Part shown: positions 9,685 to 59,322 of the stretch, piece after piece
Layout of the letters: each line of letters begins with the position of its first letter
Numbering within the stretch: the first letter of the stretch is position 1
DNA from: a virus
IMG/VR virus record: IMGVR_UViG_3300025009_000099
Coordinates: 1 to 64,000 of that record
Length of the DNA: 64,000 bases
Reading direction: 5' to 3' (one strand)
Translations under genes and position numbers: made by a program
Notes under the pieces: generated by a model
Told to the model about the DNA's origin: nothing
What the model saw: the letters and a program-made list of their open reading frames with translations, nothing else
Database searches by the model: none

Positions 9685-10043
9685 CTTATTGCTAATGCCT
9701 AACAAACTGTAAATTGCCTAACAGACTGGATTGCATGAATGATGATTAGATGATGATTGTATGGGCGTTCGATGGTGAACAGGAATATAGTGTGTACAAA
9801 CGTGACCAAAGGTGCCCAAAGGTGTTCAGGTGGTGTCAAAGGTGGGCACATGGGCACATATAAATGGCACCAAACGGGCACTAAACGTACACACCTGTCA
9901 CCAATAGGCACCGGCTGGACACACATAATTGGCACCGGCTGGCACCACATTAACATCAACTGGCACCACATGGGTACAGGTAGGCTAGAAAAAGGTAATC
10001 ATTTCAAAGAGTTACAATCCTGTGTGTCCAAAAGTGTCCAATA

Positions 10044-10162
10044 GTGTCCAACCGTACACCTCCCCCCCGTGTCGTGAGTGGGGAGGGGTGTCTGTTTTAG
10101 TATTTAATTTTTTTATTAAATACTTAAATAGAATGGTCGGGGGGAGGTGTACACACGGACAC
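10044..10162. repeat. nested palindrome with A+T-rich core
   Basis: The outer arms GTACACCTCCCCCC (10054-10067) and GGGGGGAGGTGTAC (10139-10152) are perfect 14-bp inverted repeats, extended by GTGTCC at 10044 and GGACAC at 10157. The inner arms AGTATTTAAT (10099-10108) and ATTAAATACT (10115-10124) are perfect, with a T6 loop. G+C-rich arms around an A+T-rich core between two repeat blocks resemble a replication origin with an unwinding element. Confidence 0.65.
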
Positions 10163-10293
10163 TTTTGACGCCAACCGTACACAGCCCTCAAATTCCCCAA
10201 CAATATCAACCACTTACACAAGCAACCTGTCACCAAAAGGCACCAAACCATTACCACCCGGCACCAAAAATGACACCAACCGACACCAAACCC

Positions 10294-10323
10294 TTGACAA
10301 ACGGCACCAAACCATGTTACAAT
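10294..10323 (+). promoter_or_regulatory. strong promoter of the RHH gene
   Basis: TTGACA (10294-10299), an 18-base spacer and an extended -10 TGT-TACAAT (10318-10323). It lies inside the right-hand GCAC block, with units on both sides and between the boxes, so a protein bound to the array should control it. Confidence 0.7.
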
Positions 10324-10392
10324 GGCACCAAACAGCACCACCTGTCACCACGGCACACTACCTCAATCAACCTCAATCAACGGAGTCTCACT

Positions 10393-13650: not shown

Positions 13651-14091
13651 ATGATTAAAGAATTTCAAGGTAATTATCGTTGGCTATCTAACTTTGCTCC
13701 AGTAGATATAGTAATAAGAGATAAAGCTTATCCATCAGTTGAACATGCCTACATGGCTATGAAAGCTCCAGATAATGCTGACTGGCAAAGTTTTTGTAGT
13801 AATAAAAGTAATTCTGCAGGAAAAGTTAAAAAAGCATCTAAATTTATTCAGCTTCGACCTGATTGGGATGATAATTGTAGACTTACTTTAATGAAGCTTT
13901 TGTTAAAATTAAAGTTTTCACAAAAGCCTTTTCGATCAAAACTCATATCTACAGGAAACCAAAACATTCAAGAAGGCAATTATTGGAATGACAAATTCTT
14001 CGGAATATGCCTAAAAACAGGTGAAGGAGAAAATCATTTAGGCCGCTTAATTATGAACATTCGAGATCAAATTAATAATGGAGTATTATAA
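13651..14091 (+). CDS. NADAR-family protein (YbiA-like)
   Basis: The 146-residue product follows the NADAR (DUF1768) pattern: GNYRWLSNFAPV at the start, YPSVEHAYMAMKA, a central IQLRPDWDD, and an end block EGNYWNDKFFGIC with NHLGRLIMNIR. NADAR proteins act on ADP-ribose-linked N-glycosides, and family members remove ADP-ribose from guanine in DNA, reversing DarT-type toxins. In a phage it may counter such a host defence or recycle nucleotides; that is inference. The stop overlaps the next RHH gene (TAATG), so the two are made together. The codons are A+T-rich. Confidence 0.85.
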   Translation: MIKEFQGNYRWLSNFAPVDIVIRDKAYPSVEHAYMAMKAPDNADWQSFCSNKSNSAGKVKKASKFIQLRPDWDDNCRLTLMKLLLKLKFSQKPFRSKLISTGNQNIQEGNYWNDKFFGICLKTGEGENHLGRLIMNIRDQINNGVL

Positions 14092-43732: not shown

Positions 43733-45585
43733 TAAAGTCTCCTATTTAATTGCATAATTTCAAACATAATATTTTCAAGATCAAAATTATAACCATTATT
43801 TGTAATTATAAAATTCCAATAATATCCAGAAAGAATACTTCCCATATTAACACGATGCCTTGTAGTAACACTACTCGAATCTTTCATCAAAAATGTACGA
43901 GTTTGTCCATCAGTCTCAACAGTTAATGAAAGTTTTCCACTTGAGTTTAGGCCTAAATAAGCAGAAGTAACTCTCTTCTTATAAAATGATCCTAAATCAG
44001 AACGTCCAAAATCAACTAAAGCATCTATTAAATCTCCATTATCAGTAGTTCCAGTTAATTCATAAATACCATCCATTGCAACACCATAATTTTTGCCTTC
44101 ATACGTATAGAAAGAATTATAACCATAATTATCATATTGACTTGTTGCTTCAGTATCTATGTTAACAACCCAAACTCTAGCAGTCTTATCAAGAATTGCG
44201 GTTGTTCCTTGCCCCGCAATAGTAGTATTGATTGCAACTATATCTTCAGATAATACTGCAGTAAATGTACCAACAACAGTATACGAATCTGAAACAGTAA
44301 GTTGCTCAAGAATATTAGCAATTGCTATTCTTGTTGCAGTAATAGTATCTACAATTGTCCCAGTATTATTTATAAAAATAATATGCTCAACAACTGTCTT
44401 TGATGCATCTAGAACATAAATTTCTTCTAGTAGATATTTCGTCCCAACTGGCGGACCTTCAAACATCATGCCCCATCTTGACGAGAAGATCACACTCAGT
44501 TCACCGTACTCCGCTTCCTCAAACATCCTGCCGATGAGTGATGGAAAGTCGGCGTTGACTTCTCCTCTGCCGATTGTTGTCGTAGTCATCGAGCAAACGA
44601 GTGCTGGTAACATTGCGAAGATAAATTCAGGTGTCGCCGGGACGAAAGCAAGCTCCTCAAGATACGCGGTGAGAGCCGGGAAGGTCGCATCAATTGCCCC
44701 GTAGCCATCGACCGTCTCAAACATCTGACAGCCGAACGCCGGGAAATTTGCCCTGATATAATCCGATGAACTCTTGGCGTACAGTGTGCCGGCGCCAGAG
44801 CAGATCGCCGTTGTCTGCTGGTATGTGAGCGACCCGGTTCCCTCAAGAAATGCCTTGCAAGTCCCTGCTTGGAGTAACCCTGTGCCGCCCAGTGTTGCAG
44901 TGCCAGTAGAGATAACTTCTCCGTCCTCGAATGATGCATCAGTTATCTGGTCGCCGCTGGAGTAGAGCCGACCATAGGCGTACAGGTCGATGAACTCGGG
45001 GACTGGGGTAGGCGTTGTACTGTGGTAAACTACAGTTTCAGTTCCTGTAATCACTGCGTAAACAATCGAGTTATCCACCTGCCGGTAGATCCTGAACTCT
45101 GAATCAAAACTCGGTATACTTTGCAGGCTGGCCTTGAATACCCCGTTCTCGTAAACATGCACTCCTGTAATATCTATCGCCAGGCCATGTGTGAACTGAG
45201 ATATTGACTGTCCGTCCATTCCCGCTGGACCGATCATCATACAGGCCCCTGAGATATCGCCTACTGTGAAGCGCAAGTATGAATGAAAAGGGTTTATGCT
45301 CCTTGCTGTAGTATCCCAGGCACTGCTCATCAGTTTAGCAATCTCCATCACTGGAGCTTCTATAATAGGATTCGTGACTACTGGGTCTTGAGTGGGGGTG
45401 GTGGTGACAACGGTTACAGTTGTTGTGGTAGTTGGAGATGTCCCGGTTACACCAATAGGGATATAGACAGGGGTGCCGTCTGAAGATATTATCCAAGGGT
45501 TGGAGAAGTCAGCCCCGCCGCCACCATACCCGCCACCGAGAACAAGGTCGGTTACTGATCCATCACCAGTATATGTCAGGCTCAT
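43732..45585 (-). CDS. tail protein, possibly chimeric, 617 aa
   Basis: A Gly/Thr-rich N-terminus is followed by a Thr-rich stretch (TTTTTVTVVTTTPTQD). The middle is beta-rich and the C-terminal third (about 470-617, YGYNSFYTYEGKNYGV...) is a distinct domain. Base composition changes near 44460: the first roughly 375 residues are encoded in G+C-rich DNA and the rest in A+T-rich DNA, suggesting recombination within the gene. It overlaps both neighbours by ATGA and TAATG. Probable tail spike or fibre base component; no enzyme motif seen. Confidence 0.6.
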   Translation of the reverse strand: MSLTYTGDGSVTDLVLGGGYGGGGADFSNPWIISSDGTPVYIPIGVTGTSPTTTTTVTVVTTTPTQDPVVTNPIIEAPVMEIAKLMSSAWDTTARSINPFHSYLRFTVGDISGACMMIGPAGMDGQSISQFTHGLAIDITGVHVYENGVFKASLQSIPSFDSEFRIYRQVDNSIVYAVITGTETVVYHSTTPTPVPEFIDLYAYGRLYSSGDQITDASFEDGEVISTGTATLGGTGLLQAGTCKAFLEGTGSLTYQQTTAICSGAGTLYAKSSSDYIRANFPAFGCQMFETVDGYGAIDATFPALTAYLEELAFVPATPEFIFAMLPALVCSMTTTTIGRGEVNADFPSLIGRMFEEAEYGELSVIFSSRWGMMFEGPPVGTKYLLEEIYVLDASKTVVEHIIFINNTGTIVDTITATRIAIANILEQLTVSDSYTVVGTFTAVLSEDIVAINTTIAGQGTTAILDKTARVWVVNIDTEATSQYDNYGYNSFYTYEGKNYGVAMDGIYELTGTTDNGDLIDALVDFGRSDLGSFYKKRVTSAYLGLNSSGKLSLTVETDGQTRTFLMKDSSSVTTRHRVNMGSILSGYYWNFIITNNGYNFDLENIMFEIMQLNRRL

Positions 45586-45998
45586 ATCAGTACCTCCTGA
45601 GTCGGGTAGTTGGTCGAGTCATATCCGACGAAAACGTAGAATCCAATGCCGCTTACCCCGTACCACGAAGCGACGTAATTATCCCCCGGCCACACATAAA
45701 GAGGTTTCCCCCAGTCCTGATAGAGTTTCTGAGTAAACAGGGTGGTCTTCATTGGTTCTTCTGCCCAGCCGAACAACGCCTCTTTCAAGAATGCAACTTC
45801 TGAGGCAGTCGCAACCCTGATATCAATGGCAAGGGTGGTGGTAGATTCAGTAGGATACGTTTGAATGACTGGCAAAGCACCCCCCACATATTCTCCAGTC
45901 GGATACTCAACCACTGACACCGATCCTTGTGAGGATAGAGTGCTGCCAGTACCAGCCGGGACAACTATGTATCGCCAATCTTTTGAAAGTATAGTCAT
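45582..45998 (-). CDS. unknown tail protein, 138 aa
   Basis: ATGA overlaps on both sides tie it to the tail genes. Beta-rich, aromatic (WRYIVVPAG, GFYVFVGYDS). No family recognised. Confidence 0.6.
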   Translation of the reverse strand: MTILSKDWRYIVVPAGTGSTLSSQGSVSVVEYPTGEYVGGALPVIQTYPTESTTTLAIDIRVATASEVAFLKEALFGWAEEPMKTTLFTQKLYQDWGKPLYVWPGDNYVASWYGVSGIGFYVFVGYDSTNYPTQEVLI

Positions 45999-47812
45999 GG
46001 CATTCCTATTGCGTATTTATCGTAAGGGCCGACAGGACTCTGCGGGACTATCGGCGGACACTGGTAGGCGGCGAGGGCGTTACACCTTGGGTCATCACCG
46101 TAGAGCCCAATGGCAAAGTTATCAGCATCTCCGACCGGGAATGGCAGTTCTCCCATTACTCGCCAGGGTTCTGTGCTTGCATCTTCTTCGTCAGTTGCTG
46201 CAGTCCAGTTCAGTGAGGCGAAAGCGTATTTCTCCACCTCTGTCGGAACTCCATCAATAATTTCCTCAATCGTATGCTTGACCACACCTAGCAGAAATAT
46301 TCGTTCAGGCGTAACTATACAAGGACGCACATTGATAAGTTCTACTCCTTCAGAACATTCAGGCAAGATGGTCCAGCCAGTGAATGGGGATCCATAATGT
46401 ACAGCTCTAACGCCAATCTTAACCTTGTTGCTAATACATAAATAAAGATGCGTATCTTCGAATAGTCCTGCATAAGTAATATCTGGTCTTACGCCCTCTT
46501 CTTCAGATACAGAAGTAGGAACAAGAACAGTTGCTATATACAGTCCATCAGGAGTAAACTTAACCGCACCATACTTTCTGGTCCAAGTATAAATAATTCC
46601 TGCATGATCGTGGAACATTACTGAATCGTAGGGCACTGTGAAATTGACATTCGGATATGCACCAGCAACCTGCTCAAACATTCTCTTAGCGTTGAACCAG
46701 TCACCTGAAACTGTCACAATAGCGAGGTCAACAAGCAAAGGCATGAACTGATTTGAATTTACCAAATGCACATTCCCTCCGACTGTCATCGAATAGAACA
46801 GCCTCCACTTCTCTTCATCTGGATTATCGTCATAATATACTGATGCTTCGCAAACTTCCGACCCAGACGAAAACACATGACAAGAAGCGTTGACGGCATG
46901 GAAAAACGTACCTTCAAAAGCATAAGACCCAAGCGGTTCGCATGATCCGTCATTCACCGAGTTGCTGAGAATATTCCGCAGTGCTTCGGGCATGGAGTCG
47001 TTCAGTATCTCGCTGAAGTGGATAGTGTCTTGCATCCCAAAGTCAACGTCGATGCTGTAGCCTACGGCCTTTCTCAAAGGATCACCAACAAAGTCATAAA
47101 TCCATGCACTGTGAAAGGTGGTATATCTATCATCCCCGGTCTTCTGGTAGATCCGCCAGGGGGTATAAGCATCCGCATATTCAATATGCTTGGCAACGCA
47201 GTCTATCCGGCTTGCCTGGCTCCCGTTTGAAATATAGAACGAAGCGGTTTTTTCAAAGACCTGCCTCCACCAGTCGAATGTCCCATCATCAGCAAGGTCG
47301 TACTTCATCGAGTCGGAGACAATGATGTTGAAAGTTTCCCCGTGAAAAGGAAGCAGGACGGGAGAACAAGAATAATCAGTGACAAGGACTGTTCCTGAGT
47401 AGGTGGTATCTCCGTTGAGCAGTCCGAAGTAAGACTGGTTCACCGCAGGCAGGAACTTAACAGGATAATACCCTGTTTCTATCGGAATCTGCCCATCGAA
47501 GAACGTAGTAAACTCCCCGGCAATTCCCAAGTCCTTGAACATCACATACAAGTCTTGGGCTGGATTGAATCCGCCTGCCCAATAATCTGCTACTGCAATC
47601 TTAATTCCATATTGTGTCGAGCAGGCTACAACCGCGCCCATTGGAGCTGTCACTTTGCCGCCGTTTAGGTCTTTACTGAGTTGCCATACCTTAAATCTGA
47701 ACCCATCCCATACCGGACAAGCAGAAGGAATATCCATCTCCTTAATCTGTGCGAGCTTCTTCTTAGCAAACCATCTGCGTTTCAGGCTGCGGTCGCCGTC
47801 GAAGGTAATCAT
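45995..47812 (-). CDS. unknown large tail protein, 605 aa
   Basis: Beta-rich, with many Trp, Tyr and Cys; residues about 100-300 contain several aromatic strands, and the end (DDPRCNALAAYQCPPIVPQSPVG) is Pro- and Cys-rich. Linked to both neighbours by ATGA overlaps. Probably a tail spike or baseplate-like protein. No family recognised. Confidence 0.55.
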   Translation of the reverse strand: MITFDGDRSLKRRWFAKKKLAQIKEMDIPSACPVWDGFRFKVWQLSKDLNGGKVTAPMGAVVACSTQYGIKIAVADYWAGGFNPAQDLYVMFKDLGIAGEFTTFFDGQIPIETGYYPVKFLPAVNQSYFGLLNGDTTYSGTVLVTDYSCSPVLLPFHGETFNIIVSDSMKYDLADDGTFDWWRQVFEKTASFYISNGSQASRIDCVAKHIEYADAYTPWRIYQKTGDDRYTTFHSAWIYDFVGDPLRKAVGYSIDVDFGMQDTIHFSEILNDSMPEALRNILSNSVNDGSCEPLGSYAFEGTFFHAVNASCHVFSSGSEVCEASVYYDDNPDEEKWRLFYSMTVGGNVHLVNSNQFMPLLVDLAIVTVSGDWFNAKRMFEQVAGAYPNVNFTVPYDSVMFHDHAGIIYTWTRKYGAVKFTPDGLYIATVLVPTSVSEEEGVRPDITYAGLFEDTHLYLCISNKVKIGVRAVHYGSPFTGWTILPECSEGVELINVRPCIVTPERIFLLGVVKHTIEEIIDGVPTEVEKYAFASLNWTAATDEEDASTEPWRVMGELPFPVGDADNFAIGLYGDDPRCNALAAYQCPPIVPQSPVGPYDKYAIGMP

Positions 47813-48747
47813 TCAGCAATCTCAGTCTGTCCAGAAAAGTTCGTCCAAAATACTGGTGGAGCAAGGTCATAATCTTGCCACGTTCCATCGGGAGATGTGG
47901 CCGTATAAACAGTTCTGGAAATAGCCAAGAATATCTCACCATTCCAAAATATTTCAGACCATGATGTAGATATTGGCAGCGTCGTAAGCGTCCAATTTAT
48001 TCCATCAGATGATGTGGCGGACGAATTTGAGTTATACGCGATAATGCAAAAAACAGTCCCATTCCACGCGATGGATGCCCATGACCCAGATGAAGGAGTT
48101 GGAAGAACAACCTCTGTCCACGCAACACCATCAGTAGAGATTATACATTTATGCTGGTAACCAGATTTAAGATAGTTTGAGAGAGCACAAAAGATTGTAC
48201 CATTCCAAACTATCTTTTTGTATGTCAGTCCAGAAGGAGCAGCAGTATAACTCCAGGTTGTTCCGTTAGAAGATGTCGCTATCCTATTAGCTCCAACCGC
48301 ACAGAATATACTTCCATTCCAAGTAGCCCCATACAAAGACATTGATGCAGGAAGACTGTGCTGAGTCCATGTTATTCCATCTACCGACCGAAGCATGGTA
48401 GACACTGCAACTGTATCACCACCTATTGCATAAAAAACCCCATCTACCGAGAGAACAACGGAACAGTTTATATCGACAGGGAACGCCCTTTGGGTCCATG
48501 CTTCTCCATCTGGCGAGGTCATAACCATTGTTGCTTTACTACCTGAACAAAAGACTGATCCATTCCAGGCTGTAGATGTAAAACTAGAGGTCCCGGGCAG
48601 TGTTACATTTGCCCATTGCGCACCATCTGATGATATTGAAAAAATGTTACTAAAGTCGAAACTAGAAGCAAGACAGAAAACATTTCCATTCCATGCTATA
48701 GAATCCCAACTTGCTGCAAAATTGGAACTAGATAAAGAAATGATCAT
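47809..48747 (-). CDS. seven-bladed beta-propeller tail protein
   Basis: The 312-residue product has seven repeats of about 42 residues, each with SxDGxxWTxxxLP and WNGxxFC-type strands (WNGNVFC, WNGSVFC, WNGSIFC, WNGTIFC, WNGTVFC, WNGEIFL; the third is VDGVFYA). This is a BNR/sialidase-like propeller, common in receptor-binding phage proteins. No sialidase catalytic set is obvious, so binding rather than cleavage is likelier. Start follows GGAGTAAAGG; ATGA overlap with the next gene. Confidence 0.75.
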   Translation of the reverse strand: MIISLSSSNFAASWDSIAWNGNVFCLASSFDFSNIFSISSDGAQWANVTLPGTSSFTSTAWNGSVFCSGSKATMVMTSPDGEAWTQRAFPVDINCSVVLSVDGVFYAIGGDTVAVSTMLRSVDGITWTQHSLPASMSLYGATWNGSIFCAVGANRIATSSNGTTWSYTAAPSGLTYKKIVWNGTIFCALSNYLKSGYQHKCIISTDGVAWTEVVLPTPSSGSWASIAWNGTVFCIIAYNSNSSATSSDGINWTLTTLPISTSWSEIFWNGEIFLAISRTVYTATSPDGTWQDYDLAPPVFWTNFSGQTEIAE

Positions 48748-48750
48748 CCT

Positions 48751-49215
48751 TTACTCCGCAGGAACTCCAAAGAAAGCAGCGTCAATCCGCTGGGTGTCGC
48801 CGAGGGTCTTGAGTGCGGTGGAGATAATCATCTCCTTGCCGACAGTCCCGACAGTCAACTGAAGGCGTTTCTCTGTGGTAGCAACCCCGCCGGCGTCAGC
48901 CGCGTCAACAATCCGCGCGAATGACGGATATCCGGTAGCCACATAGTCACCCTGCCATACCTCTGCGGATGCCTTAGCGATAACTCCACTTGAAGAAGTC
49001 GTGGCAAGATTAACCCCTGTCCCTGCCCCATTGAGAGACACGGTACAGAGCAATGTTGCCGACCCGATAGAAGCTCCTGCTGTTGCAGGAACAAATGTCA
49101 ATGCTTCTGCAAGAGAAACAGTAGATCCATAGATCTTGATGACTTTACCATTAATCAATGCTTCAGTATCCCCAGTAACATTAAAATGATCCTGTGCTGC
49201 CGTTGATAATTTCAT
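48751..49215 (-). CDS. unknown tail protein, 154 aa
   Basis: TTGAGGTC precedes the ATG. Ala/Gly/Thr-rich with beta strands and a central Gly-Ala-Thr run. Codons are G+C-rich. No family recognised. Confidence 0.6.
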   Translation of the reverse strand: MKLSTAAQDHFNVTGDTEALINGKVIKIYGSTVSLAEALTFVPATAGASIGSATLLCTVSLNGAGTGVNLATTSSSGVIAKASAEVWQGDYVATGYPSFARIVDAADAGGVATTEKRLQLTVGTVGKEMIISTALKTLGDTQRIDAAFFGVPAE

Positions 49216-49222
49216 TATGACC

Positions 49223-49621
49223 TCAATTGACTGCGGCGATTACCTCGCCAATGTTAAGGGAGTGGACCTGTGTAGCGACAAGGGGTCTGTTGGGAAGAAG
49301 GGGACCGGCCATGTAAAAAGTACCGACTGTTGCCGCGCTCCATATCCCTATGTGTGTAACTGTGTACCCTGCTGAACCTGCTGCAACTGTCCAAGAGGCC
49401 GCCAAATCGGACAGGCACATTCCCGTCCCTACAACTGGATCGTCAAAAGTAATAGCCTTCCGTATATAATCTGCATCAGTACCGACTACAACCTCATTAG
49501 CTCCTGTCTCTCCTGGATCATCTGTATGTAAAGAGACAAACCATGCCGTTGGTCTGGTAACTGCCGTAGTAGTAAACATAAAGGTAACAATCAAATCTTC
49601 TGCTGCATTTGAAAAGCTCAT
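49223..49621 (-). CDS. phage tail fibre-like protein, 132 aa
   Basis: MSFSNAAEDLIVTFMF and SLHTDDPGETGANEVVV give the pattern of a small, widespread phage tail-associated family (tail fibre or baseplate). Beta-rich, no enzyme motif. The assignment is by pattern. Confidence 0.6.
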   Translation of the reverse strand: MSFSNAAEDLIVTFMFTTTAVTRPTAWFVSLHTDDPGETGANEVVVGTDADYIRKAITFDDPVVGTGMCLSDLAASWTVAAGSAGYTVTHIGIWSAATVGTFYMAGPLLPNRPLVATQVHSLNIGEVIAAVN

Positions 49622-49624
49622 ATA

Positions 49625-50122
49625 TCACCCCACCAGTGCGAAGCCAACAGGGACACGTAAGGCTCCACCGTTAGAATTGATTATTTCAGGAGACGGAAAC
49701 AGAACTCCTGAACAGAACACTCCAGTAGTTCCATCCCATGTTGGAGACGAAGAAATAAAAGCTCCTCTGACTGTTACTCCAGCAGCAAATTCAAAAATGT
49801 TTGGATCGGCAAGCGTAGTCAATGTCGCGTTGGCAACAGCTGGAAACGTAATGGCTTGTCGTGCTGTACCTGTATAAGACTTGACCTCACCGCAAGCAGC
49901 TATCATCTCAACCATTGTATCTGTAGCAATCGGTTGGTAGTTATTGCCATACAAGCCTAGATACCAGGTTGCATATTGCGATCCTCCAGTAAACGCTGCT
50001 GCGAGCATGTAATTCAGCTCCACAGTTGGCATTATATTATGAACTTGCTGCACCGACAAAACATCTCCGTCAGGTCCAAGGCGTTCAATGGTATAAACAA
50101 ACCCTATTTTTTGTATCTCCAT
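49625..50122 (-). CDS. unknown tail protein, 165 aa
   Basis: I chose the ATG at 50122, behind CGGAGAGC, rather than upstream codons that lie inside the preceding gene. A block YATWYLGLYGNNY and an end ALRVPVGFALVG suggest the same structural class as the 132-residue protein. TAATG overlap with the previous gene. Confidence 0.6.
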   Translation of the reverse strand: MEIQKIGFVYTIERLGPDGDVLSVQQVHNIMPTVELNYMLAAAFTGGSQYATWYLGLYGNNYQPIATDTMVEMIAACGEVKSYTGTARQAITFPAVANATLTTLADPNIFEFAAGVTVRGAFISSSPTWDGTTGVFCSGVLFPSPEIINSNGGALRVPVGFALVG

Positions 50123-52766: not shown

Positions 52767-53495
52767 TCATATATGTATCCCTAACACTTTCTTGGCAAAC
52801 ACACATTCTCCATTCTTAAGTACCTCAGCAAAGTCATCAAGATTCATAATCCAATAACCTTTCCGCCTAAGATTCCAATTCGGCCAAGAGTTAGGTCCGC
52901 CAATCAAACGCTGATGCAAATTAACAAATGTAGCTGCTGTGCAATGTCCCCCAACTACGCCACCAGTCGGAACACTCAATCCATCCTCTCGTGGCTCCAT
53001 CATTCCATCTGTCCACGCCAGTCCAAGAACTGCACTACCATAATAAGCAATACCTCGGATAACTTCATCAACTGTTTTAGCCCTGCAATATGATTCAATC
53101 AATCCCTCTTTCTTGGCGGTCTGCATAGTAGCAGCGAGAGACGTTCCATAGCTAATAGGATTCGATCCAGGTCGTTCAGATCCAGGCCATTGATCATTGT
53201 CCTGTACTCTGAAATAAAACTGCAAAGCCCACTCATCTCCAAGCGAACAAATGTTCGGTTCATGCTCAAGGAAAGCAGCAAACCCAAAACCAGCACAAGC
53301 ACTCCACTTGCGTTGATTAAGTCCAGGATCACTAAACTTCTTAACTCGATACTTGCTAATTAGCTCTCGTTCACTAAGGTCTATACCACCATCTGGTGCA
53401 GCCATAGAAAGAAGGTTCGGTGCAGTTGGATCTGGCTGAAAAATAAGACCACATCGTGTGTCTCTAGTTTCTGTTTTGCCATCTTTAAGTATCAT
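52767..53495 (-). CDS. papain-like (C1A) cysteine peptidase
   Basis: In the 242-residue product: Q61 and C67 with the correct six-residue spacing (QRKWSACAGFGFA), H184 in GGHCTAA and N202 in NSWPNWNLRRKGYW. This is the full papain active-site set. No signal peptide is seen. It overlaps the next gene by ATGA and sits in the lysis/connector cluster, so it may act on virion or host envelope proteins; the role is inference. Confidence 0.8.
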   Translation of the reverse strand: MILKDGKTETRDTRCGLIFQPDPTAPNLLSMAAPDGGIDLSERELISKYRVKKFSDPGLNQRKWSACAGFGFAAFLEHEPNICSLGDEWALQFYFRVQDNDQWPGSERPGSNPISYGTSLAATMQTAKKEGLIESYCRAKTVDEVIRGIAYYGSAVLGLAWTDGMMEPREDGLSVPTGGVVGGHCTAATFVNLHQRLIGGPNSWPNWNLRRKGYWIMNLDDFAEVLKNGECVFAKKVLGIHI

Positions 53496-53986
53496 AATTG
53501 TACCTTGCGAATTTCATTAATGAGTAGTGCCAAGTTACTTTCCTGGGCATCCTTCAAGTCGGATATTGATTTTTCCAAATTACCAAATCTCACTTTACTG
53601 GCAATGTCGCGCTCAGTGGAGAGTTCATGACAATTCTGCTGCATACCCAGACAAGCAGGTCTGGTAATAAACCGAGGCTCACCATCAGCGAGTTTGAAGA
53701 GATCAAGAACATCTTTAATTGCCGCCCTGAGTTCAGCGATGTCGCTAGCATGTGCTCCCATTTCCGAATTCAGCTGCGAGATCGACGCTCGTGCTACGTT
53801 GAGATCATCGAGCTTCTGAGTAAGTTCTGAGATTTTTTTATCTTGCTCATCCACTCGCTCCTTATTCCTGGCTATCGACTCCTTTTCTCTTTGAATTTTA
53901 CTTCCCAAGCTAATTAATGAAAGTCCCCACCCTACCAAAATTCCGACTACAGCGGCAAGAGCCAAGAAACCGCTCGTCTCAACCAT
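53492..53986 (-). CDS. membrane-anchored coiled-coil protein (spanin- or holin-like)
   Basis: 164 residues: an N-terminal membrane helix (GFLALAAVVGILVGWGLSLI) then a long coiled coil (about 30-90) and a second helix (about 125-160) around two Cys. This fits an inner-membrane spanin-type protein or another lysis factor. Overlaps both neighbours. Unproven. Confidence 0.55.
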   Translation of the reverse strand: MVETSGFLALAAVVGILVGWGLSLISLGSKIQREKESIARNKERVDEQDKKISELTQKLDDLNVARASISQLNSEMGAHASDIAELRAAIKDVLDLFKLADGEPRFITRPACLGMQQNCHELSTERDIASKVRFGNLEKSISDLKDAQESNLALLINEIRKVQL

Positions 53987-54524
53987 CTAAATCTCCCTTA
54001 TCGTAAAGTGCGTCCTCGCTGTTCATGTGTCTTTCATCAGGTCGTTCATAATACTTTTTTCGAGCCTCGATCAGTCGCCCCAGTCGGTGCTGTACAACTG
54101 GGTTCCACAGCGGATCAATATCCTCGGAACGATTCGTGGAGAACCACGAGAAAAATACCACTCCAATAGTACTGACCGCAGTCAGATACAAACCACTCAC
54201 TGTCAGCATAAGTTTTATCTTCGGCCAGACGTCCAAGTCAGCGGCATGGATGAGTGAGACACAGTTCAGAAAAAACCTTCCATTAGCTCCTAAGAAAGCA
54301 GACAAGTTCTTGGTCGAGCAGGCCCACTCAACGTCATGACAAAGGCCGGCCGGATTGAGATAAACTTTCCCAAAACGGTCAGGAACTATCTTATCTCCCC
54401 AGCCACTGCCAGCGCCGAGGAATGTTGGCCACGCTTCTGGTGGCAGATCGTGCGGCCAGATAGGTTCCAGGAAATCCGGAACAGTAAGTTTCGCTCCCCA
54501 GCAAGGTATCTCGACAAAGTTCAT
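53979..54524 (-). CDS. membrane protein with PLA2-like His-Asp motif, 181 aa
   Basis: I chose the ATG at 54524 behind GAAGGTG. LCHDVEWA (62-69) within NPAGLCHDVEWACS resembles the calcium-binding/catalytic CxxHD region of phospholipase A2-like and DUF1353-like proteins. Residues about 104-128 form one or two membrane helices, followed by a basic tail. Possibly a membrane-active lysis factor. The PLA2 link rests on one motif. Confidence 0.5.
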   Translation of the reverse strand: MNFVEIPCWGAKLTVPDFLEPIWPHDLPPEAWPTFLGAGSGWGDKIVPDRFGKVYLNPAGLCHDVEWACSTKNLSAFLGANGRFFLNCVSLIHAADLDVWPKIKLMLTVSGLYLTAVSTIGVVFFSWFSTNRSEDIDPLWNPVVQHRLGRLIEARKKYYERPDERHMNSEDALYDKGDLDG

Positions 54525-54706
54525 TTTGTACACACCTTCACTCCGGTTGGGAGTTTTTTGAACCACTCGCACGTGTCGCCAGCTCGGCCGTTGTAATCGA
54601 AAGAAAAGCATGGATTACTCATATCACAGTATCGATCTTTAACTCCATGAATTCCTTTTTCATCCTTATCCATCATATGTAAACTTATTTCTGCAATCAC
54701 CCTCAT
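54521..54706 (-). CDS. unknown Cys-containing protein, 61 aa
   Basis: A strong GGAGGGAGAG site; ATGA overlap with the next gene. Four Cys (RYC, NPC, DTC, KVC) suggest a metal site or disulfides. Basic at the end (KKLPTGVKVCTK). No family recognised. Confidence 0.6.
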   Translation of the reverse strand: MRVIAEISLHMMDKDEKGIHGVKDRYCDMSNPCFSFDYNGRAGDTCEWFKKLPTGVKVCTK

Positions 54707-54734
54707 CTCTCCCTCCAGGAAGTAAAGATAAACC

Positions 54735-54818
54735 TCAGTCGCAATCTTCGTTTGAATAATTACATATTGGACATCTTGGACCGGTGTATCTGTGCCCGCA
54801 GTGTGTGCAGGTCACCAT
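54735..54818 (-). CDS. zinc-ribbon microprotein, 27 aa
   Basis: A very short frame whose start overlaps the preceding stop. CxxC-x8-CxxC spans CTHCGHRYTGPRCPIC, a near-ideal zinc ribbon, in a 27-residue product. The preceding gene also starts with a CPKC zinc half. The coupling and motif make translation plausible. Confidence 0.45.
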   Translation of the reverse strand: MVTCTHCGHRYTGPRCPICNYSNEDCD

Positions 54819-55495
54819 TGCATCGTCACGGTTTTGCTGGTATCTTTGTAAGGAGCATGCAAATAAATACCCCCATGACTGGTTCCGGTGTCGTTATCGC
54901 CTTCGCCGTTCGGTCCTATGCCCGGCTTATAGACAAATCCATACATGGCCGCCTTGGAGTTTCGGCTGCAGTTTTCTTGATCCCGGCAGTTCTTCAATGG
55001 GTTTTTAATGATGAAAGTCTTGCCACTTGAGAAGGTAAACTTGATCGGTCCCGCCCCCAAATCTTTCCCGCTCTTTGGAATCCTCCATGCTTGCCGCCCG
55101 CCGTTGCGAACACCGTAACTGGTATAGGTCGCGCTGTGGGTGTAGCCCTCGGAAGGTTTATCCGGTGTGCCAGGTGTAGTGGCCCCAGAAATAAACGAGT
55201 AGTTGGCGCCGCTGGCCATCTTAATAACCATCTTCAATGGTCGGACATATTGAGGGCCAGACTTTGACATGAGAAACACCGGGCAACCCTTATATGATTT
55301 CCCCTTCCGTGCCACCTCATTATTGACTGTGACGGCCACAACATCAGTATCTTTCAAAGTCCTGAAAAGGATACATGCCGCGCCGTTGCCCTGATCTGAA
55401 TCATTTTCCCAGCTTACTGTATAAGGAAAAGGTTTCAGGCCTGCGGGAGGTGGTGTGTCGGTCCATGTATGTTTGCATTTCGGACAGGTTGGCAT
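54812..55495 (-). CDS. unknown protein with N-terminal zinc ribbon half, 227 aa
   Basis: I chose the ATG at 55495 behind GGAGAG. The N-terminus (MPTCPKCKHTWTDTPPPAG) carries a CxxC; the rest is beta-rich with many Gly and Lys (KSYKGCPVFLMSKSG, FTFSSGKTFIIKN) and three further Cys. No family recognised. It precedes the lysis/peptidase genes in transcription order. Confidence 0.55.
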   Translation of the reverse strand: MPTCPKCKHTWTDTPPPAGLKPFPYTVSWENDSDQGNGAACILFRTLKDTDVVAVTVNNEVARKGKSYKGCPVFLMSKSGPQYVRPLKMVIKMASGANYSFISGATTPGTPDKPSEGYTHSATYTSYGVRNGGRQAWRIPKSGKDLGAGPIKFTFSSGKTFIIKNPLKNCRDQENCSRNSKAAMYGFVYKPGIGPNGEGDNDTGTSHGGIYLHAPYKDTSKTVTMQW

Positions 55496-55496
55496 C

Positions 55497-55826
55497 TTAG
55501 CTCTCCTCGAAATCACCCTGGCCGTCAGTCAGAGTATTCTCATCAGGCCCTTCTGGTTCAGCCACCTCCTCATCCGGTACATCAGGTATCTTCCTGGCAG
55601 CTTCATCGGCTAACCCAGGAAGGATGTTGAACGCGTCTCCCAAGACCTCCACAGCCTCAGCCATATCCTCTTTTTTAGTCACTATGACGGAGATGTTGAT
55701 CACATTACCACCAGGAACACTTGCCTCGGGCTTTCCTCCGCTTGTTCCGGTTTGGCTGATCTTGATCGGTGCCGCGCACCCTGTTAAAAAACCTAATGCA
55801 ATAATCGCTATCAATGCTTTTTTCAT
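55497..55826 (-). CDS. lipoprotein (outer-membrane spanin-like?), 109 aa
   Basis: A classic lipoprotein signal: MKKALIAIIALGFLTGC with the lipobox LTGC, then a small soluble domain with an acidic, Pro-rich C-terminus. It should be lipidated and sent to the periplasmic face. It could be an outer-membrane spanin or an exclusion protein. Start chosen at 55826, behind GGGGAAA. Confidence 0.65.
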   Translation of the reverse strand: MKKALIAIIALGFLTGCAAPIKISQTGTSGGKPEASVPGGNVINISVIVTKKEDMAEAVEVLGDAFNILPGLADEAARKIPDVPDEEVAEPEGPDENTLTDGQGDFEES

Positions 55827-55839
55827 ATCATTTCCCCTA

Positions 55840-57678
55840 TTACTGCATATTTCCCAGCGGCACCGTGCCGCGAGATTGCGGTCCAATTACAGCACATTCC
55901 CCAACCTGGCAGGCCCCGTCGCACCAATACAACCCCGACACTGCCTCACAAGTTTCTTGTGTCAAACATAAATCAGGATGACCAAAATCACATACTGGGT
56001 CAGGTGTGCTTCCTGGATTGGCGTATGCCAAAGTTATGGTGGGGTCAAACGTTTCTGTCAGCAATGTCTGGCTGGTATTGTTATTGTCGTGTAGCCGGTA
56101 GCTGTAGCGATACTCCTCGGTCACGATTGCACCGAAATAAACATCCGTTATTCCACTGCTTGCCGGGAGGAAAGAATAAGAGTCTGCTGCCGCACCGCCT
56201 TGATAGATACTGCCGACTACCCTGGCCTGGGAGTTGTTGCCGGTCGTGTTATAGGTGTTGGCGTATGTCCGGTAATCTACATCCGAGCCGCTCTTTATAA
56301 ACGTGTTGCCACTGAATAATGGGTAGCCATTACACCGGCTATAACTGTCACCCAATACCAGATTATACCCGCTGGATGTGACGGTATTGTTGAGCACAAA
56401 TAGAGAATCAGAACTATTCGCAGAACATGTTATCCCGATTGTATCAGATCCATCGCCAGTTACGGAAATGGTATTGTTCGAGAACGTGGCGACCATGCCC
56501 TGAACATACGCCCCAATAAACAGTCCTTTTCCGCCGCCATCTATGTATGCGGTTGCCCCTGTTGGAGAGTATGTGCCAGTGTATCTGTTGTCGGTAACAA
56601 CGGTGATTTGATTATTATAAGCTACAGTGTCATAGGCATTCCAGGTTTGCCGTATCCCTGTCGCTGAATTGCCTGGATAAGTGGCACTCGGATCGTTCAG
56701 GTATTGGCTTCCGTATTCAACCCCTAGTGCTGTAATTTGCATATCCATGATATTTTCATAGATTACCACGTCATGATTGCCAGTTCCCCCTCCGGTCCCA
56801 ACCCCAATAGGGTGTTCGCCTCGCCCAATTATGGTGTTATCGTGTATGGAGATATTCGATCCCTCATATTGCCCCACGCCAGACGAATTTGTGGCAATTG
56901 ACCGGATAGTGATATGGTTGCCATACACCTCGGCGTTATTGCCAGTAACAATCCCTCGATGTCTGGTGTTGACAATAGTGTTATTTCGGTATACCGACCC
57001 GGTAGCGCTTGATGCGCTTTTTGCTCCTGTCAGAGCCTCAGACCCCTGCATCCGATTCTTGAGGGTGCCAAACTCGTAGGTATCCTCTATTGTATTCTGC
57101 TCATACAATCCATAACTCCCTGAGCAAATAATTCCACCAACATCCCTACCCCCATATTTTACATATAGGTTCGCAACGTGAATATTATCTGCTGATCTAG
57201 TGCCTGCGAGGTCTGTGCTGTAAGTCCCGATAGGGTTATTCCCCCTGCCGTATTCATTGCCCTCAGACATGGCTGTGCCTTGGATAATTGACCCGTTACG
57301 AATTGAAATATGATGTTTATTCCATGCCCCGAAGGTCACTCCTTCGCCTGGATTGACGTTGTTATACGTGATTGAGTAGCCATTTAGGTCGATGACCACG
57401 TAATTTGCGGACACAGATATCGCTGTTGAATCCGCGGTGATATTTCCTTGCAGAATATATCGAGTGTTCGCCTGGTTCGCCTGGTATGGGGTTGAGTAGT
57501 TCCCCCCATCTACATTGACAGTGTATATGACATCGGCAGCAAACGGGACCTCCTGGAGCGTGCAACTCCCCCAGTTCACAGTCGAAGGATCGCAAGTAGA
57601 GCCATCCCCTCCTAGGCCAAAGGCTGAAGAGTACAATGTTAGAAGGAGCAATGTAGTAAATAATTGTATTTTTCTCAT
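55840..57678 (-). CDS. secreted right-handed beta-helix protein, 612 aa
   Basis: I chose the ATG at 57678 because it gives a good Sec signal peptide (RKIQLFTTLLLLTLYSSAFG). The mature part has many NNTI/NNTV turns with repeating N-x-I/V strands, a pectate-lyase-like beta-helix (about 60-520), then a Cys-rich end (CDFGHPDLCLTQETC). Beta-helices form tail spikes and polysaccharide lyases. A cleavable signal on such a protein is unusual; the product may be exported to the host surface. Confidence 0.7.
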   Translation of the reverse strand: MRKIQLFTTLLLLTLYSSAFGLGGDGSTCDPSTVNWGSCTLQEVPFAADVIYTVNVDGGNYSTPYQANQANTRYILQGNITADSTAISVSANYVVIDLNGYSITYNNVNPGEGVTFGAWNKHHISIRNGSIIQGTAMSEGNEYGRGNNPIGTYSTDLAGTRSADNIHVANLYVKYGGRDVGGIICSGSYGLYEQNTIEDTYEFGTLKNRMQGSEALTGAKSASSATGSVYRNNTIVNTRHRGIVTGNNAEVYGNHITIRSIATNSSGVGQYEGSNISIHDNTIIGRGEHPIGVGTGGGTGNHDVVIYENIMDMQITALGVEYGSQYLNDPSATYPGNSATGIRQTWNAYDTVAYNNQITVVTDNRYTGTYSPTGATAYIDGGGKGLFIGAYVQGMVATFSNNTISVTGDGSDTIGITCSANSSDSLFVLNNTVTSSGYNLVLGDSYSRCNGYPLFSGNTFIKSGSDVDYRTYANTYNTTGNNSQARVVGSIYQGGAAADSYSFLPASSGITDVYFGAIVTEEYRYSYRLHDNNNTSQTLLTETFDPTITLAYANPGSTPDPVCDFGHPDLCLTQETCEAVSGLYWCDGACQVGECAVIGPQSRGTVPLGNMQ

Positions 57679-57683
57679 TTTTA

Positions 57684-58445
57684 TCACCACGGCTTTGCCG
57701 CCTGCCAACCATTCAGTATTGCAAATTTGGTCACCTGCACATAGTCACCGGCAGTCATCGAAAACTCTCCCCGAGGGCCAACAGAGACCGATGTCAACGA
57801 GGGTCCGTCGGTCGCTGATAATTCGTCATAATCATCATCCCACGTCCCGTCAGAGTTCACGGAGTGGTCCCGGTTCGGTCTATCCCACGTGTAGGCAATA
57901 TCAATCCATGTCCCGGCTGTTATGGCAACATCCCCATATGCTGACATAGATGCTGCGCCAATCCGATGATATCCGACGATGTTTCTCGTACTATTTACGG
58001 CTATTTTCAGATAATTTGTCGCGTCATAATTGGCCGCGAAAAGGATAGTGTTGCCTAGTGGAGTAGCGTTTACATACACCCTCACCCAAACCGTCTGTAC
58101 TCCATTGATATCAAGAGGCACCCCGCCACTATTCGGCCATGTGATGTACTCGTTTACTGCGTCTCCCTTGATGCCGATATCGGGAGATCCCTCACCATAA
58201 TCGGTTCCAATGTCGAGCGCCCCCACTACCGTGCCATCTACTTCAGTCCCGCTACCATTGCAGCCATAATCAGTGCCTGATGTGTGACTACCGTCCCACG
58301 CAAAAAGATAGGTGCCGGACATGCAGGATGCGCCGCCGCCTCCTTGCCCCTTCGCCATTCCTATGACACTCATGATCTGCTGACTGCCGGCAAATGACAG
58401 CCCCGGAATCAGCAATAAAATCAATACCAGTATGAGTTTTTTCAT
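57684..58445 (-). CDS. secreted LamG/concanavalin-like protein, 253 aa
   Basis: A Sec signal peptide (KKLILVLILLLIPGLSFAG) then a beta-sandwich-like domain (EYITWPNSGG, VWVRVYVNATPLGNTILF, GTWIDIAYTWD), as in LamG/concanavalin modules. The start follows AGGAAAC, one base after the upstream stop. Likely carbohydrate binding at the cell surface or on virions. No enzyme motif. Confidence 0.65.
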   Translation of the reverse strand: MKKLILVLILLLIPGLSFAGSQQIMSVIGMAKGQGGGGASCMSGTYLFAWDGSHTSGTDYGCNGSGTEVDGTVVGALDIGTDYGEGSPDIGIKGDAVNEYITWPNSGGVPLDINGVQTVWVRVYVNATPLGNTILFAANYDATNYLKIAVNSTRNIVGYHRIGAASMSAYGDVAITAGTWIDIAYTWDRPNRDHSVNSDGTWDDDYDELSATDGPSLTSVSVGPRGEFSMTAGDYVQVTKFAILNGWQAAKPW

Positions 58446-58446
58446 A

Positions 58447-59271
58447 TCAGTTTCCTGTGTCCGTCCAATGCGTTCCGAGTACCGTCCCAGACCAGCAATA
58501 ATACCCATCCGCCGAGTAGTATTGGCAGGTGATCGTGTCTCCTGCCGCACTGGTATTGGTTGCCTTATCTCCATCGTCCAGCGTAACCCCATCCAAAATC
58601 ATTTTATCGGCTGCATTTACGTCCAGGCTGACGACGATATTTCCGATGGTGACAACCGTAAAATTCATTCCCGACAAGACGGCAGGGGCTGTAATGGTTG
58701 AAGTTGCAGTTACATATACTGTGCCACCGTAAGCCTCATCCGGTGAGTCGGTACCGATGGTATAACTTGTTGCTGTGCTCGTTGTCGCTGTTTTATGGAC
58801 CCCCAAAACGTGGAACTCAATATCTCCCTCAACGAGTTTGACCGCCCCTGCCTCATTATAAATCTCTTCAATTCCGCCACCTTGTGGGGAAATGGCTGTA
58901 TTGTTTGGCAGATCGGATGTCCTGTACCCATCAGCCGCCAAGGTAGCGAGTTTGGTCACGCTGAGGGTATCGGTGGTCTTGTTATAGGTCAGCCCGGCAT
59001 CGCCGCCGAAAACTCCGCCGTCATTAAACTGGACATAAGTATCCGATCCTCCTGGTGTGCCACTGCCGAATGCAGAGAATAGAACATTCTTCGTCTGCCA
59101 CTGAGGTGCCGATTCCGAGTCTACGATAAGAACCTTGTCACCAGCAACAGGTGTAGTCTTCGTAGCATAACTGGACTGTGGAGCTTTGAGAGGCATATCC
59201 GTCATTTTATTTTGATTTCCAGCACAAGCTGTCAAGGACAACAACAAACTTATCACTAAGAGTTTTCTCAT
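58447..59271 (-). CDS. tail-fibre-like protein with lipoprotein signal, 274 aa
   Basis: It begins MRKLLVISLLLSLTAC, a lipoprotein signal with lipobox LTAC. The rest matches phage tail fibre domains, including the common TYVQFNDGGVFGGDAGLTYN and TDTLSV motif. Fibre proteins are not normally lipidated, so this gene is odd. It may be a surface-displayed decoy or a host-derived hybrid. Start preceded by GGTGGTGG. Confidence 0.65.
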   Translation of the reverse strand: MRKLLVISLLLSLTACAGNQNKMTDMPLKAPQSSYATKTTPVAGDKVLIVDSESAPQWQTKNVLFSAFGSGTPGGSDTYVQFNDGGVFGGDAGLTYNKTTDTLSVTKLATLAADGYRTSDLPNNTAISPQGGGIEEIYNEAGAVKLVEGDIEFHVLGVHKTATTSTATSYTIGTDSPDEAYGGTVYVTATSTITAPAVLSGMNFTVVTIGNIVVSLDVNAADKMILDGVTLDDGDKATNTSAAGDTITCQYYSADGYYCWSGTVLGTHWTDTGN

Positions 59272-59322
59272 TCCACCACCAATTTTCTAATTGTTGTTTT
59301 ATTACAAAATGTAATATAGAAA

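Follow-up and report, generated by a model that had tools for sequence, protein, structure and literature searches.

Four consecutive late genes of an uncultivated tailed phage, designated P1 to P4, encode proteins that, as their sequences indicate, are very probably exported from the host cytoplasm. The genes are located on the minus strand of the analysed stretch of DNA, hereafter referred to as the window, which comprises 64,000 of the 64,927 bases of the IMG/VR record IMGVR_UViG_3300025009_000099. On the basis of their signal peptides and lipoboxes, the tight gene spacing, and the conservation of export across phages, the four genes could be interpreted, with roughly even chances of being right, as a late operon of Sec-exported proteins that act outside the cytoplasm, on surface or matrix polymers. 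A fifth gene, P5, belongs with this four-gene cassette. The features of the cassette are as follows:

P1, 58447-59271, minus strand: fibre-like lipoprotein, 274 amino acids (aa)
P1 C-terminal domain, 58450-58788, minus strand: about 110 aa, two conserved Cys, ends with W-T-D-x-G-N, common to unrelated phages
P2, 57684-58445, minus strand: 253 aa, type I signal peptide, short motif SQQIMSVIGMAKGQGGGG, variable domain
P3, 55840-57678, minus strand: 612 aa, type I signal peptide, beta-helix-like repeats, Cys-rich segment near the end
P3 C-terminal tag RGTVPLGNMQ, 55843-55872, minus strand
P4, 55497-55826, minus strand: small lipoprotein, 109 aa, MKKALIAIIALGFLTGC followed by AA
P5, 54812-55495, minus strand: 227 aa, beta-rich, begins with CPKC, export signal absent here

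Export signals of the cassette proteins

Signal peptides were sought with a home-made rule considering the charge of the n-region, the hydrophobic core, and the -3/-1 positions or a lipobox. Only four of the 84 open reading frames (ORFs) in the window passed this rule, and these were exactly P1-P4, confirming the claim of an earlier note on this DNA that four late genes in a row carry Sec or lipoprotein signals; with ORFs of at least 90 aa, 4 of 64 passed, all in one run. P1 has a type II signal peptide (MRKLLVISLLLSLTAC followed by AG), the lipoboxes of P1 and P4 being LTAC before AG and LTGC before AA, and the type I signals in P2 and P3 are MKKLILVLILLLIPGLSFA, followed by GS, and MRKIQLFTTLLLLTLYSSAFG. 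For three of the four genes, the exact start falls inside the longest ORF, right where the signal peptide is encoded. P1-P4 are adjacent on the late strand, with gaps of 1, 5, and 13 nucleotides (nt), and P5 is located 1 nt further on.

In 74 control loci the rule was passed by 44 of 869 ORFs, and runs of at least three such ORFs occurred in two loci, in both of which the signal peptides were unconvincing on inspection. In a set of 20 cassette loci, assembled without locus L152 and the window, 81 of 244 ORFs passed, and runs of at least three were found in 17 loci. A signal peptide was recognised by the strict rule in all 22 relatives of P1 that carry its C-terminal domain; this count includes the P1 of the window and omits the contig copies (L146, L147, L160-L167, and L104), as well as L169, whose match coordinates are those of L168. 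Three of 41 distinct other fibre ORFs of the VQFND type passed, one of which is the copy of P1 in a sister contig, while two are doubtful. Among the genes that follow P1, relatives of P2 and P3, the strict rule was passed by 40 of 42 and a relaxed one by 41; the single failure is the P3 of L003, reading MIHILLLVLLLFPFDAWAADY.

The P1 signal is of the lipoprotein type in the window alone, and the signal peptides of its relatives differ in both sequence and type, which suggests that the property of being exported, rather than one particular sequence, has been conserved. That unrelated phages bear such different signals on one and the same domain strongly supports export.

Fibre-like protein P1 and recurrence of the cassette

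P1 carries the fibre motif VQFNDGG..LTYNKTTDTLSV, whose first part, pointed out in the earlier note, is indeed present at residues 80-86 (window positions 59014-59034). Residues 75-134 match the tail fiber family phrog_9942 (E 1.8e-4), and a motif of the type VQFND..LTYNKTTDTL is common to P1 and other fibre-type ORFs (41 distinct ones with VQFND, sister copy included). Across phages, P1 proteins combine a variable fibre-type N-terminal half with one of two C-terminal domains. The structure model of P1, with a predicted local distance difference test (pLDDT) value of 37.8, was not used.

An initial search with P1 yielded 78 loci, most of them retrieved through the VQFND motif; with the two C-terminal domain types as queries, 15 and 12 loci were obtained. 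The same genes with 99-100% identity are present in the sister contig IMGVR_UViG_3300025154_000275. Loci L003, L004, and L005 share the P1 C-terminal domain, with 76-81% identity, and the gene order P1-P2-P3; the next gene encodes a lipoprotein in L003 and L005, and L004 ends after P3. In 50,697 records of named phages, neither the 14-kb region, searched as DNA, nor any of the protein queries (P2, P3, the C-terminal domain of P1, one P5, and two distant P1 proteins) gave a match, and no cultured carrier of the cassette came to light.

The cassette recurs in phages whose genes are otherwise unrelated. The N-terminal regions of P1 share 79% identity in L092 and L095 (over 117 aa), 70% in L004 and L086 (203 aa), and 72% in L004 and L099 (206 aa), whereas no homologue common to the two members of any of these pairs was detected among the ORFs outside the P1-P3 span, the stretches compared being about 17 kb or less for all loci except the window. 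Within the group of the window, the N-terminal regions of P1 differ. Since the P1 modules cross between unrelated backbones, no part of the protein, N- or C-terminal, follows the virion backbone in the way the docking part of a virion fibre should.

Variable proteins P2 and P3 and the C-terminal tag

The P2 proteins of different phages follow a common plan, namely a signal peptide, a short motif, often a Gly-rich stretch, and then a variable domain. The terms "LamG-like" and "beta-helix" used in the earlier note for two of the exported proteins found no Pfam match in the window's own proteins, but they agree with genes at the same positions elsewhere and with the repeat of P3. Thus, a Laminin_G_3 domain occupies the P2 position in L092 (2.3e-7) and L158 (1.9e-36), and the P3 of the window carries a repeat of the type N-x-[I/V/T/F/M] (NN-x-I type). 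Two segments of this P3 show 49-56% identity to an L155 protein in which the homologous part is fused behind an N-terminus of P2 type. In the third slot of the relatives, Beta_helix domains were detected in L003 and L153 (5e-9 and 3e-9), a weak match to the heparinase II C-terminal domain (HepII_C, 0.014) in L005, a weak PcRGLX match (0.0017) in L159, and, in L106, which belongs to the group of the window, a signal-bearing protein with a Peptidase_M28 domain (3.1e-25). The enzymes found in this slot, M28 and the weakly matching heparinase-like and lyase-like ones, point more to an action on surface or matrix polymers. No sequence relatives of P2, P3, or the P3 of L005 were found in the PDB.

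Several of the third-slot proteins finish with a 10-residue tag, RGTVPLG[DN]M[RQ]. A degenerate DNA pattern, which itself fixed GTVPLG[ND]M, matched 23 stretches, of which 12 (8 distinct) are at the extreme C-terminus of a P3-type protein and 11 are inside unrelated proteins; L003, L004, and L104, the latter with the same cassette as L099, were reached by other searches too. In the 8 distinct tags, synonymous variation was observed at six of the seven RGTVPLG codons. An inverted repeat, CCCGCTCG..CGAGCGGG, extends over the P3 stop codon in the tagged genes of L003, L004, L085, L086, and L092, and is absent at the 3' end of P3 in the window and L099. The tag was therefore rejected as a mere DNA element; the constancy of the residues despite the variation of the codons makes selection on the peptide more likely. 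The inverted repeat sometimes precedes a T-rich stretch and could be a terminator or a recombination point. Instead of the RGTVPLG tag, the P3 proteins of L150 and L005 have another C-terminal peptide in common, PGPWQQAAFTFGTAPM[EN]F, and the C-terminus of L168 reads QPLGTVLLGQ.

P4, P5, and possible hosts

In a number of phages, including L003 and L127, a single protein combines a lipoprotein start like that of P4 with the P5 domain, so that P4 and P5 correspond to parts of one lipoprotein of other phages. A search with P5 revealed 35 viral loci. The N-termini of 30 complete P5 proteins, a set that does not include L104, L108, L109, and L113 or the incomplete L126, were inspected by eye, and 23 of them have a lipobox or a type I signal. 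The P5 of the window starts with MPTCPKCKHTW, its CxxC aligning with Cys residues that follow the signal peptide in the exported relatives. The P5 model (md90fee9da017) is beta-rich with a pLDDT of 80.9; it gave no confident fold match, the best Foldseek hits having E values of 4.2e-3 (PDB) and 4.6e-3 (BFVD), and the best VIA Z was 6.9 over 68 residues.

The C-terminal domain of P5 was also detected in seven loci of genome_contigs, five of which are assigned to Desulfobulbaceae from the titles of the records or, in the case of Desulfoprunum, from its taxonomy. In Desulfoprunum benzoelyticum the domain is part of a lipoprotein in a non-phage neighbourhood, while the copies in the metagenome-assembled genome SB20 are located in probable prophages; the domain was present in 4 of the 93 genomes of the family of genome G001. 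These occurrences suggest that at least some carriers of the cassette infect Desulfobulbaceae-like hosts. A prophage origin was considered and rejected: the P1 C-terminal domain was found in none of the 395 genomes of the phylum of G001 (all nine viral control records matched), and neither an integrase (PF00589) nor a resolvase (PF00239) was found in the record of the window.

Proposed function and alternative explanations

If the proteins are exported as predicted, P1 and P4 would be lipidated, and P2 and P3 would reside in the periplasm or beyond. According to the Lol rule, known from enterobacteria, Ala at Cys+2 directs a lipoprotein to the outer membrane, the probable destination of P1 and P4 by this rule. 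The fibre-like P1, the lectin-like P2, and P3, which is beta-helix-like and in relatives has other hydrolase-like domains, could attach to polymers of the infected cell's surface or matrix and degrade them. Receptors would thus be masked or stripped and the matrix loosened before and at lysis, which may prevent progeny from being trapped by the dying cell or its debris and keep rival phages off; superinfection exclusion is one possible outcome of such masking. The interpretation given in the earlier note, that these proteins could coat the host surface as decoy receptors or for superinfection exclusion, or be assembled outside, is therefore partly supported, namely as regards export. P4 and P5 would together represent an adhesin-like lipoprotein of the outer membrane, made as two chains here and as one chain in other phages. 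More tentatively, and with less chance of being correct, one could hypothesise that a mobile cassette common to many unrelated phages has made genes for fibres, lectins, and depolymerases into a Sec-exported set forming an extracellular or surface complex, in which P1 serves as an adaptor, the N-terminal strand of P2 and the tag of P3 as docking peptides, and P4/P5 as the outer-membrane anchor, so that the complex destroys receptors and clears the matrix by a logic resembling that of influenza neuraminidase. The idea of decoys copied from the phage's own fibres was rejected, since a search of the window for paralogues of P1-P5 gave none at E <=0.1.

Several observations weigh against an exported operon acting on the cell exterior. 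P1 clearly descends from fibres, and proteins that resemble fibres usually form part of the virion. Among close relatives, loci L107 and L111/L112 hold a long signal-less fibre-type protein in the same region, which in L111 includes a GDSL lipase domain; the cassette may therefore occupy a fibre slot, and a link with fibre function is possible. Seven of the 30 complete P5 proteins, all of the CPxC type of the window, lack a signal, the home-made rule gives about 5% positives among control ORFs, and no Pfam domain, enzymatic or other, was recognised in the window's own P2 and P3. The main rival explanation, which we regard as unlikely, is that P1-P3 are virion fibres finished outside the cytoplasm, being exported, folded in the periplasm with formation of disulfides, and joined to virions during or after lysis. 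It would account for the fibre-type motifs of P1, for the conserved Cys pair in its C-terminal domain and the abundance of Cys at the end of P3, the large structural proteins of this genome being often Cys-free, and for the filling of the slot by a non-exported fibre in the same phage group. However, the N-termini of P1 are alike across unrelated backbones and unlike within the group of the window, and L003 has separate non-exported fibre-type genes, one of which matches, below the threshold, the N-terminal domain of the T7 tail fibre.

That the proteins are ordinary virion parts, with the N-terminal hydrophobic segment serving as a docking or packing element rather than a working signal, is very unlikely. 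Such parts would suit the ancestry of P1 and the position of the genes in the late structural strand, but not the lipoboxes of P1 and P4, the many unrelated signal sequences borne by the same domain and likewise by P2, P3, and most P5 relatives, or the exported-type enzymes (M28 and SNase) in the same region of related phages. It is also improbable, though slightly less so, that P4 and P5 belong to the lysis machinery as an outer-membrane spanin-like lipoprotein, leaving P1-P3 alone as the exported fibre cassette. P4 does resemble Rz1-like outer-membrane spanins in being a small lipoprotein (lipobox LTGC, 109 aa), the P4- and P5-type parts are fused in some phages, and both genes adjoin lysis-like genes here and in relatives. 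The best match of P4 to spanin profiles, however, reached only E 0.11, P5 is beta-rich and not coiled-coil, and its domain occurs in bacterial chromosomal lipoproteins outside prophages. The nearest candidate for an inner-membrane spanin (53492-53986; Rz-like phrog_214, 2.5e-5, possibly owing to coiled-coil bias) is separated from P4 by at least two genes (54812-55495 and 53979-54611). The only match of P4 to a superinfection-exclusion protein, the Cor profile phrog_1119 (E 0.26), covers residues 21-40, i.e., the signal region.

Comparison with known systems

Tailed phages are generally assumed to carry their receptor-binding and depolymerase proteins as parts of the virion. Virion tailspike depolymerases and tail fibres are built from exchangeable modules with beta-helix, lectin-like, and hydrolase domains, and in this respect the cassette resembles them; P1 also has the fibre-type sequence of a virion tail fibre. 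The virion proteins, however, are made in the cytoplasm, without export signals, whereas signals are carried by P1-P4 and by all 22 P1 relatives. The signal peptides and lipoboxes of P1-P4 are those of exported phage envelope proteins in general, of which the superinfection-exclusion protein Llp of T5 is an example.

Excerpts of published papers describe several such systems. The outer-membrane protein Lom of lambda carries a signal peptide, has its gene between tail genes, and is inserted into the membrane of the host (PMC12309495). By this description it is like the cassette proteins, but it is a single beta-barrel of a temperate phage without fibre-like, lectin, or enzyme partners. Cor of phi80 and N15, a phage-made envelope protein, inactivates the receptor FhuA (PMC11436027). 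Cor and Llp are comparable with the cassette as small phage-made envelope proteins, but the cassette differs in being multi-gene and fibre-derived. Lys44 and the signal-arrest-release (SAR) endolysins are lytic enzymes sent through the host Sec system before lysis (PMC6116005); exported endolysins cut peptidoglycan, whereas no peptidoglycan-cutting domain was present in the Pfam-scanned P1-P3 proteins. In Listeria, a phage-derived pair of a secreted metzincin and a lipoprotein has been described (PMC8235301), and the combination of a phage-derived secreted protein with a lipoprotein is common to both systems, although the Listeria pair has a Gram-positive host and belongs to other families, and no fibre-like or lectin proteins are named in the excerpt.

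No exported fibre cassette of tailed phages was described in the titles and abstract openings of the open-access papers that the literature searches listed. Thus, while export of phage proteins is already known from Lom, Cor, and exported endolysins, an exported cassette of fibre, lectin, and enzyme genes appears to be new, and its recurrence in unrelated uncultivated phages suggests a little-known way of acting on the host exterior. If such a conserved and horizontally shared cassette indeed exports these proteins, lytic phages would reshape the exterior of the infected cell before lysis, and some "fibre" annotations in viral metagenomes would refer to proteins that are never in the virion. 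The cassette provides a concrete gene set for studying superinfection exclusion and progeny release.

Genomic setting and other features

The window was placed among tailed phages by matches to terminase, portal, and head-closure proteins, the portal matching phrog_1216 (1.8e-21) and, below the threshold, a SU10-type Pfam family. The cassette lies upstream of the head-closure gene, with head-side and repeat genes on one side and lysis-like genes on the other, and its strict location inside the tail module, assumed in the earlier note, was not upheld. The GC content of P1-P4 is about 0.48-0.52 versus 0.40 for the window. Two islands of higher GC content (about 0.44-0.51) are visible in the late region, one at 44000-50000, corresponding to predicted structural genes, and one at 53000-59300, corresponding to the cassette.

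Downstream of P5, signal-bearing SNase-type proteins are encoded in L092, L099, L107, L110, and L111/L112, and none was seen in the window; the SNase of L099 matches PF00565 (E 5.7e-17), and those of the other loci were recognised by reading. The same slot of L107 (5922-6643) and L111 (3396-4108) is occupied by small signal-bearing proteins that look FnIII-like by eye, together with a lipoprotein having near its end HELRHC or HELEHC, a possible zincin motif, also noted by eye.

Outside the late region, the stretch 9760-10390, which is mostly non-coding, contains short repeats around GGCACC and GTGTCCAA and is possibly an origin with iterons. The ORF that follows these repeats resembles the ORFs at 14091 and 14710.

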